Shown piece after piece: positions 47,462 to 61,362 of a stretch of 61,555 nt of DNA (position 1 is the first letter of the stretch; the number at the start of each line of letters is the position of its first letter). Source of the stretch: Gammaproteobacteria bacterium (GTDB lineage Bacteria > Pseudomonadota > Gammaproteobacteria > Pseudomonadales > Azotimanducaceae); contig JAPOYV010000100.1 of NCBI GenBank assembly GCA_026706385.1, positions 1 to 61,555 of the forward strand, written 5' to 3'. Both the position numbers and the translations under genes were made by a program. The notes beneath the pieces were generated by a model that saw nothing but the letters and a program-made list of their open reading frames with translations, did no database searches and was not told where the DNA came from.

Positions 47462-48373
47462 CTACGCACCTTCGCCGACACCAGGCGCCAGCCAGACGCA
47501 CGTGGGGCATTCGGGGTCGGCAAGCGAGGCATCCTCGGCGCACTGGTACTGCGGCGTATCGATGCGTTCTTGCCGGCTGTCGCCGCGCATGACGCCGTCC
47601 TTCCAAGCGTCGTCCGGGGCCCACCGGTAGTCGAGTTCAGTCACCGTCCCGGGAACCGTGGCATCGCGAATCAGATCGAGGGCGTGGCGAACGACATCCC
47701 GCTGCATGGCCGTGTCGAATGCCCGACCGGCAGTGCGCCCCAGCGGGAAGTCGAGGAAGACGGCGCGCGGCGCACCCGCGGACCGGGTGATCGAAAGCGC
47801 GCTCGACAGGCTGACAGAGGCAATCCCGCGCGCCTCGACCTCCCTCGCAATCAGTCCTACGGACTGGTGGCAGACCGGTCAGACCGGCACCATGAGGGCG
47901 ACGTCGACGGCGTCCGCTACGAGGCGGTCGGCGAGGGCCGGGGCCAGCACGTCGCGCACCCTCCTTGCCGAGTAGATGCCGCCCATGAACGTGTACGCGT
48001 TCGCGCCCACCTCGCCGATGACGCCTTCCGCCGCCAGGTCGCGCAAGGTCTCGAGGGGGAACACCACGTTCGGATCCTGACGCGAGTCGGCCAGATCGTA
48101 GGCGAAGTGGGTCGTGCGGAGATCCTCGACCGGGGTGTCGCGGGCGATCTCCCGGTAGCTGAAGTCGTCGCGGTGATGGAAGGCGATCTGGCCCAGGGCA
48201 TAGATCCCGCCGGACGCGACCAGGCCGACCCGCCACTCGTTCTGTGGCTTGCCCGTGTGCGCAAGACTGGCCAGCGGCTCGTTGGCGACCCAGCGGTACG
48301 GCGGGTAGCCGAGGGACGAGTACACCGCACGGGTGCGCGCGATGTAGTCGACCGGGGGTTGCCGGCCGGTCAT
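47462..48373 (-). CDS. GrdB-like (glycine/betaine/sarcosine/D-proline reductase family) selenoprotein with in-frame UGA
   Basis: Two frames separated by one TGA (47879-47881) form a single 303-residue protein. The first half runs MTGRQPPVDYIARTRAVYSS, then DLRTTHFAYDLADSRQDPNV, VFPLETLRDLAAEGVIGEVG and VALMVPV. The UGA follows, then PVCHQSVGLIAREVEARGIA, FLDFPLGRTAGRAFDTAMQR and so on to TAG at 47462. The UGA (residue 165) falls at the UxxC position where relatives carry CPVC. A perfect SECIS-like hairpin lies 12 nt downstream. The start ATG overlaps the pterin dehydratase stop (ATGA). A redox role is inferred. Confidence 0.8.
47852..47866 (-). promoter_or_regulatory. Bacterial SECIS-like hairpin downstream of the UGA
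   Basis: In the mRNA, CAGUCC-GUA-GGACUG forms a perfect 6-bp stem with a 3-nt loop starting with G. The stem begins 12 nt and the loop 18 nt after the UGA. Position, small loop and loop G match what is known for bacterial selenocysteine insertion elements read by SelB. Confidence 0.65.
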
Positions 48374-48723
48374 GAGGTGCTTGCCGACGAGGTACGCGCC
48401 GCCATGATGAAGTCGTTCCGGTGCAGGCCGCCGATCGTATGCGTCCACCAGCGGACCCGCGTCCGACCCCACTCGACCACCAGCTCCGGATGGTGGTCCG
48501 CAGCGTCCGCCAGGTCGCCGATCCGGTTCGCGAACTCGAGCGCGGCGCGGAACGTGTCGAAGGTGAACGTGGCCGTCAGCACGTCGATGCCATCCTCCTG
48601 CACGATCTCCCACCCCGGCAACGCACCGAGGAGGCGGGCCGCGTCGGCTGGCGATACGCGCGGACTGCCGGGGCGGCACGCTTGGCAGACCTCCTTCGCC
48701 AACGACTCCGTCGTTGCACTCAT
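48370..48723 (-). CDS. phhB: 4a-hydroxytetrahydrobiopterin dehydratase (pterin-4a-carbinolamine dehydratase)
   Basis: A 117-residue protein that recycles the pterin cofactor after aromatic amino-acid hydroxylation. Family marks: LGALPGWEIVQEDGIDVLTA, FRAALEFANRIGDLADAADH and the histidine motif HHPELVVEW followed by TH. The ATG at 48723 overlaps the symporter stop (ATGA), and its own stop overlaps the selenoprotein start. No pterin-dependent hydroxylase is in the window, so its role in this operon is unclear. Confidence 0.9.
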   Translation of the reverse strand: MSATTESLAKEVCQACRPGSPRVSPADAARLLGALPGWEIVQEDGIDVLTATFTFDTFRAALEFANRIGDLADAADHHPELVVEWGRTRVRWWTHTIGGLHRNDFIMAARTSSASTS

Positions 48724-60570: not shown

Positions 60571-61362
60571 TCAGGTACCCGTATCGGCGTGTTCGGTGGA
60601 CTCGCCTTTCGACCGGTCCGGTCGGTAGCGCTGCCACAGGAAAGCTGCGGGTCCGGACAACGCGTACAGGCCGAAACAGATCAGCAGCACCAGCGGCGGG
60701 TTGACGAGGATGACGGCGAAGATCAGGACCGCGGCCACCAGGGCGAAAAACGGGCGGCGGCCCTTGAGGTGCATCTCCTTCGGCGAAAAGTACGTGAACG
60801 GCGAGACCATCAGCAGGCTGACGGCGGCCGTCATGAGCGCCGTCGCGATGGCGCGCATGAGCGACGGGTCCGGCCCGGCGGTTTCGCTCCAGATCCACAC
60901 CGTGCTCGCCACGATGGCCGCGGCCGAAGGACTGGCGAGCCCCGTGAAGGTGGCGTTGTCGCCGCTGGTGTTGAAACGCGCCAGGCGCAGCCCGGCGCAG
61001 GCGACGTAGATGAAGGCCACGACCCAACCGAACTGGCCGAGGCCCTTGAGCGCCCAGAAGAACGCCACCAGGGCCGGCGCGACGCCGAAGGCGACCATGT
61101 CCGACAGGCTGTCGTACTGGGCGCCGAATTCGCTCTCCGAGCGGGTCCAGCGCGCCACCCTGCCATCCAGCGTGTCGAGAATGAAGGCGGCATAGATCGC
61201 CAATGCCGCCTTGATGAAGTGTCCATTGGCGGCCGCGACGATCGCGTAGAAGGCGGCGAAAAGGGCGGCCGTCGTGATCAGGTTGGGCAAGAGGTAGACG
61301 CCACGGCGTCGCTTGAGTTCGCCATCCGGATCGATGCTGCGCACCTTCGCGTCCTTGGCCAT
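60571..61362 (-). CDS. pssA: CDP-diacylglycerol-serine O-phosphatidyltransferase
   Basis: 263 residues starting at the ATG at 61362. An inner-membrane enzyme making phosphatidylserine. The CDP-alcohol phosphotransferase motif is complete: DTLDGRVARWTRSESEFGAQ followed by YDSLSD. It has seven or eight helices, opening with LLPNLITTAALFAAFYAIVA. It heads an apparent pssA-msrP-msrQ operon and is divergent from a partial gene at the window edge. Confidence 0.93.
   Translation of the reverse strand: MAKDAKVRSIDPDGELKRRRGVYLLPNLITTAALFAAFYAIVAAANGHFIKAALAIYAAFILDTLDGRVARWTRSESEFGAQYDSLSDMVAFGVAPALVAFFWALKGLGQFGWVVAFIYVACAGLRLARFNTSGDNATFTGLASPSAAAIVASTVWIWSETAGPDPSLMRAIATALMTAAVSLLMVSPFTYFSPKEMHLKGRRPFFALVAAVLIFAVILVNPPLVLLICFGLYALSGPAAFLWQRYRPDRSKGESTEHADTGT

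Follow-up and report, generated by a model that had tools for sequence, protein, structure and literature searches.

The window, a 61,555-nucleotide stretch of gammaproteobacterial DNA, holds on its minus strand a coding frame with an in-frame TGA, and it raises the question of whether this locus is a broken gene, two genes, or one gene whose UGA is read as selenocysteine (Sec), and what its product would do. Automatic annotation would split the gene, which very probably is actually one selenoprotein gene.

A single reading frame interrupted by TGA

We found that the gene, which encodes a PrdB/GrdB-like protein, occupies positions 47462 to 48373 on the minus strand. With TGA read as Sec (U), it runs from an ATG at 48373 to a terminal TAG at 47464 to 47462 and yields 303 residues with a single U at residue 165. 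The TGA at 47881 to 47879 is the sole interruption of the frame, which bears out the preliminary description of two same-frame halves split by that codon only. Sec165 lies in the motif MVPVUPVCHQSVGLIA, and the cysteine of its UxxC element (UPVC), Cys168 at 47870 to 47872, is invariant in the 27 rows of our alignment A1.

Directly upstream on the same strand, at 48370 to 48723, lies a pterin-4a-carbinolamine dehydratase gene (Pfam PF01329, 2.2e-27), whose TGA stop overlaps the ATG of the selenoprotein gene (ATGA at 48373 to 48370). We picked this ATG from the overlap and from relatives, and the frame stays open further upstream. Since TGA terminates the dehydratase gene, it retains its role as a stop codon in this DNA, and there has been no wholesale change of the code. 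The dehydratase gene stands beside a homolog in 1/80 loci (L050 to L129), and it is a neighbor outside any conserved unit. Elsewhere in the window, at 60573 on the minus strand, another TGA separates two coding-like frames that share a phase; the arrangement resembles a pair of adjacent genes and not a selenoprotein.

Residue 165 across relatives

A stop-tolerant search gave matches in 56 of 97 related genomes, a number that includes the window's own, and the matching rows mostly carry exactly one TGA each. A collection scan gave 80 named loci, with titles that include Gammaproteobacteria, Myxococcota, Acidobacteria, Chloroflexi, Binatota, Desulfosarcina, and others. In 110/110 loci (L020 to L129), TGA stands at the position of codon 165; this set counts the window gene itself, has some genomes twice, and comprises 92 distinct sequences over the compared region. 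In a phylum sample of 398 genomes, 16 had matches at E 1e-20 or better; 14 of these have unbroken proteins, and the other two, the window's own genome and G230, have TGA forms. The 16 distinct unbroken homologs that we fetched, 15 from this sample and one from a separate search, all have Cys at residue 165 and never Trp. Rows of the 97- and 398-genome searches that were not fetched were characterized by stop count only; among the homologs fetched and aligned, residue 165 is U or Cys only. Conservation continues past the UGA in alignment A1, where the residues flanking it on both sides are invariant. The proposal that UGA stands where Cys would be expected is upheld by these comparisons, as is conservation beyond the apparent stop.

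Several individual loci deserve mention. In a side clade comprising L155, L156, and L158, the motif reads UPLD rather than UPxC, which leaves Sec without its partner Cys, yet the 6-bp hairpin is perfect. Both forms of the wider family, Sec (C21, L040) and Cys (C181:2269-3060, L169), occur in one genome of the window's family (G042). A record titled as a Klebsiella pneumoniae metagenome-assembled genome (L117) shows 53.311% identity to the window protein, equal to that of L040, whose genome belongs to the window's family; the record has probably been mistitled.

A SECIS hairpin follows the UGA

The hairpin CAGUCC-GUA-GGACUG, at 47866 to 47852 on the minus strand, begins 12 nt past the UGA and overlaps the codons for Q-S-V-G-L; it has a 6-bp stem and a GUA loop, and the loop begins after 18 nt. 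The available text of one review gives a bacterial SECIS model with a 3- to 9-nt loop, an upper stem of 4 to 16 bp, a G in the first two loop positions, and a spacing of 16 to 37 nt, and with 3 nt, 6 bp, G first, and 18 nt, the window hairpin lies within all of these limits (PMC13188914). The stem, loop, and SECIS-type spacing claimed in the preliminary description are therefore as described, and the stem covaries among relatives. The 45 nt from the UGA alone reach z = -1.33, with 18/200 shuffles folding as well, and an Rfam search returned no SECIS match at gathering scores. Taken by itself, the hairpin is within what chance would give; its significance comes from the comparison across relatives.

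In the 92 distinct TGA sequences, stem pairs 1 to 5 are always standard, and two of them show two-sided changes: the third pair is G-C in 79, A-T in 11, and G-T in 2, and the fourth is T-A in 83, A-T in 6, and T-G in 3. In the sixth pair, 83 sequences have C-G, 1 has G-T, and 8 lack pairing. Codon choice is marked at the hairpin compared to elsewhere in the same genes, with Gly codons ending in A or G (86/86 versus 33%), Ser encoded by TCC (83/86 versus 18%), and Leu codons ending in G (92/92 versus 54%). Mean core energy is -9.33, compared to -2.99 (sd 0.20, 50 runs) after random synonymous recoding. Since random synonymous codons lose the fold, synonymous choice is bent toward keeping the hairpin.

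To these we added 30 further TGA sequences, mostly paralogs, whose stems differ (for example, CGTGCC/GGCGCG and CGTACG/TGTACG). Across the resulting 122, in which one gene is counted twice, 97% of cells pair in the true register versus 10 to 39% when slid by 1 to 3 bases, and loop position 1 is G in 122/122. The best single control is the contrast between Sec and Cys forms. The loop G is present in 30/30 of the further TGA sequences versus 1/16 Cys homologs, and mean stem pairs out of six are 5.5 versus 3.6, with many of these Cys homologs coming from one genus. Judged by its covariation, its codon bias, and its decay in Cys forms, the hairpin behaves as a real SECIS element. The family offers a clean comparative case, with Sec forms retaining the hairpin and Cys forms losing it, by which many relatives might be recognized.

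A pseudogene or sequencing error, in which a nonsense change splits the gene, would fit the two pieces that ordinary annotation gives and the fact that TGA ends the gene just upstream, but a TGA shared by all 110 loci under record titles spanning several phyla, conservation beyond it, and a selected hairpin leave this reading with practically no probability, and it is effectively refuted.

Selenocysteine machinery in the same genome

The window's genome (5.1 Mb, 98% complete) contains selA, selB, selC, and selD, each over its cut-off, and so answers the check for sel genes that accompanied the first reading of this DNA. SelA (C84:188072-189160), SelB (C84:186201-188027), and tRNA-Sec (C84:186049-186138; 68.8 bits, gathering 47) lie side by side, and SelD is encoded at C3:86502-87407. 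When 80 genomes were tested for SelB at E 1e-70, a match was found in 50/56 with a TGA homolog, 1/14 with Cys homologs only, and 4/10 without any homolog. The six TGA-homolog genomes in which SelB was not found at this threshold (G006, G031, G033, G043, G055, and G056) may reflect incomplete assemblies, their stated completeness being 85 to 95%.

UGA read-through is known in bacteria, and the codon could in principle be read as another residue, such as Trp or Cys, by a route that does not involve Sec machinery. This is extremely improbable here, given a SECIS element that is selected in Sec forms and lost in Cys homologs, sel genes in the same genome, Cys rather than Trp in every unbroken homolog fetched, and a TGA that stops the neighboring gene. 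From sequence, the machinery and the hairpin can be taken as established, and we infer the decoding of the UGA as Sec itself; the support for Sec insertion is about as strong as sequence alone permits. All the checks we ran among those suggested with the first reading favored it. We conclude that the locus very probably encodes a functional PrdB/GrdB-type UxxC selenoprotein with Sec inserted at codon 165.

Predicted structure, paralogs, and the C-terminal CxxC

The predicted model of the window protein (pLDDT 92.3, pTM 0.92) has a strand at residues 158 to 162, Sec165, and a helix at residues 166 to 181. The product is thus predicted to be an alpha/beta protein in which a strand is followed immediately by Sec at the N-terminal end of a helix. 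No solved relative of the protein was found by sequence, and none clearly by fold.

Both sides of the UGA are modeled as one fold, which bears on the possibility that the UGA is a deliberate stop ending a short form, with the second half translated separately. An ATG-started frame does cover the second half (47462 to 47707), and to our knowledge, a Sec UGA always yields some termination. Cys homologs, however, span the same length as single unbroken proteins, and the invariant residues on either side of the UGA belong to that one modeled fold. We consider two separate products very improbable, and the locus is better read as one selenoprotein.

We found four further homologs in the window's genome, for a total of five Sec paralogs (the others at C101:54286, C77:3651, C112:36618, and C84:179886; L172, L173, L174, and L171, respectively). 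In each of the four, a single TGA falls in the same column, followed at the same offset by a SECIS-like hairpin of 5 to 6 pairs, and three of them are longer, at 381 to 456 residues as read. The C84 paralog is located some 5.6 kb away from the selABC genes.

The window protein ends in a second cysteine motif, a CxxC formed by Cys289 and Cys292 (47498 to 47509, minus strand), which is found in 26/27 rows of alignment A1. In the window's clade, it is present in 100/101 readable loci, a count that is not deduplicated and leaves aside 3 more loci cut by N runs, compared to 0/6 loci in the sister clade. The Cys289/Cys292 pair is a possible resolving dithiol.

Family assignment and proposed mechanism

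The best NCBIfam model for the window protein is that of D-proline reductase PrdB (TIGR04483), with E 1.9e-45 and 155.2 bits, where the cut-off is 300. GrdB-type NCBIfam models gave 54 to 64 bits, all below their cut-offs (TIGR01917, 55.3 versus 602.2; TIGR01918, 57.8 versus 65.45), and Pfam GRDB (PF07355) gave 37.4 bits against a gathering cut-off of 22 (E 2.4e-9). The protein is nearer to PrdB than to GrdB, yet below the D-proline reductase cut-off. The label "GrdB-like" in the preliminary description is loose, with PrdB fitting best. The PF07355 profile stops at about the residue before Sec, and the model was perhaps built from split annotations and hence cut at the UGA.

Of the alternatives, a true D-proline or glycine reductase subunit engaged in Stickland-type reduction fares best, as PrdB is the best model and PF07355 is over its cut-off. 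It is nevertheless improbable, given a score far short of the PrdB cut-off and no conserved gene neighbor found among the homolog loci compared. PF09338, which we take to be the PrdA/GrdE-type partner, had no match in the window's genome or in 16 further genomes, and PF04723 (GrdA) had none in the window's genome, with the control genomes silent in both searches too.

Given the predicted fold, searches that found no conserved neighbor and no solved relative by sequence or clearly by fold, and partner searches without a match (controls silent), we infer that the window protein is likely a stand-alone selenol/thiol reductase. In the scheme that we propose, the ribosome would read UGA codon 165 as Sec by means of SelB, tRNA-Sec, and the downstream hairpin. 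The Sec165 selenolate would then attack a small substrate at an electrophilic carbon or at a disulfide-like bond, Cys168 would resolve the adduct to a selenenylsulfide, and the C-terminal Cys289/Cys292 pair would pass in electrons from a cellular dithiol. We offer the reaction steps, from Sec165 attack through Cys168 resolution to Cys289/Cys292 recharge, tentatively and by analogy, as somewhat short of an even prospect; the lack of the CxxC in the sister clade counts against them. Analogies to the reduction of glycine and of D-proline, and to a GrdB-like protein that is a candidate for fluoroacetate reduction, point to the reductive loss of an amine, halide, or thiol group as the most likely reaction class. 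The broader possibility, to which we give nearly even chances, is a stand-alone selenol reductase family, with five Sec paralogs in one uncultured gammaproteobacterium, that cleaves a bond in a manner unlike glycine or D-proline reduction and without a pyruvoyl partner, the clade's C-terminal CxxC replacing an external electron carrier. The UxxC, the C-terminal CxxC, and the five paralogs are all parts open to biochemical testing.

Comparison with known systems

PrdB resembles the window protein over residues 33 to 251, an alignment that runs across Sec; on the other hand, the window protein reaches half the cut-off score, has its C-terminal CxxC tail beyond the model, and was not found with conserved partner genes. 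The likeness to GrdB (glycine/sarcosine/betaine reductase selenoprotein B) consists of a match to the last third of PF07355 up to Sec and of NCBIfam matches (TIGR01917 and TIGR01918) that span Sec. The window protein differs from GrdB in its 303 residues compared to 431 to 435 in the models, in scoring below every NCBIfam cut-off, and in a genome where no GrdA match was found, the control being silent as well.

UxxC selenoproteins named PrdB are already known from sea DNA, and the kind is not new. According to the available text of these sources, a UxxC "proline reductase PrdB" was the third most abundant known selenoprotein family in the Sargasso Sea in 2005, with 42 genes (PMC1088965), the GOS survey of 2008 counted, under pfam07355, 235 forms with Sec and 110 with Cys (PMC2398784), and reviews from 2022 and 2026 list GrdB and PrdB among UxxC selenoproteins (PMC9312934, PMC13188914). 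The marine family shares with the window gene the UxxC, the Cys counterparts (PMC1088965, PMC2398784), the pfam07355 assignment (PMC2398784), and PrdB as the nearest name, and by this match of motif, Pfam family, and name, the two would appear to be the same family. In the available text of these surveys and reviews, we found no mention of a five-fold set in one genome, a C-terminal CxxC, or missing conserved neighbors. The nearest named family is abundant in the sea and bears the name of a clostridial enzyme; our findings suggest that the name "PrdB" misleads.

A further parallel comes from Cloacibacillus, a rumen bacterium that respires fluoroacetate, in which the available text describes a candidate GrdB-like fluoroacetate system in a four-gene operon found by transcriptomics (PMC10838667). 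Compared by description, the likeness is that GrdB-type proteins may reductively remove a non-amine group, and by analogy, this suggests that the chemistry of GrdB-like proteins need not stop at amino acids (PMC10838667).
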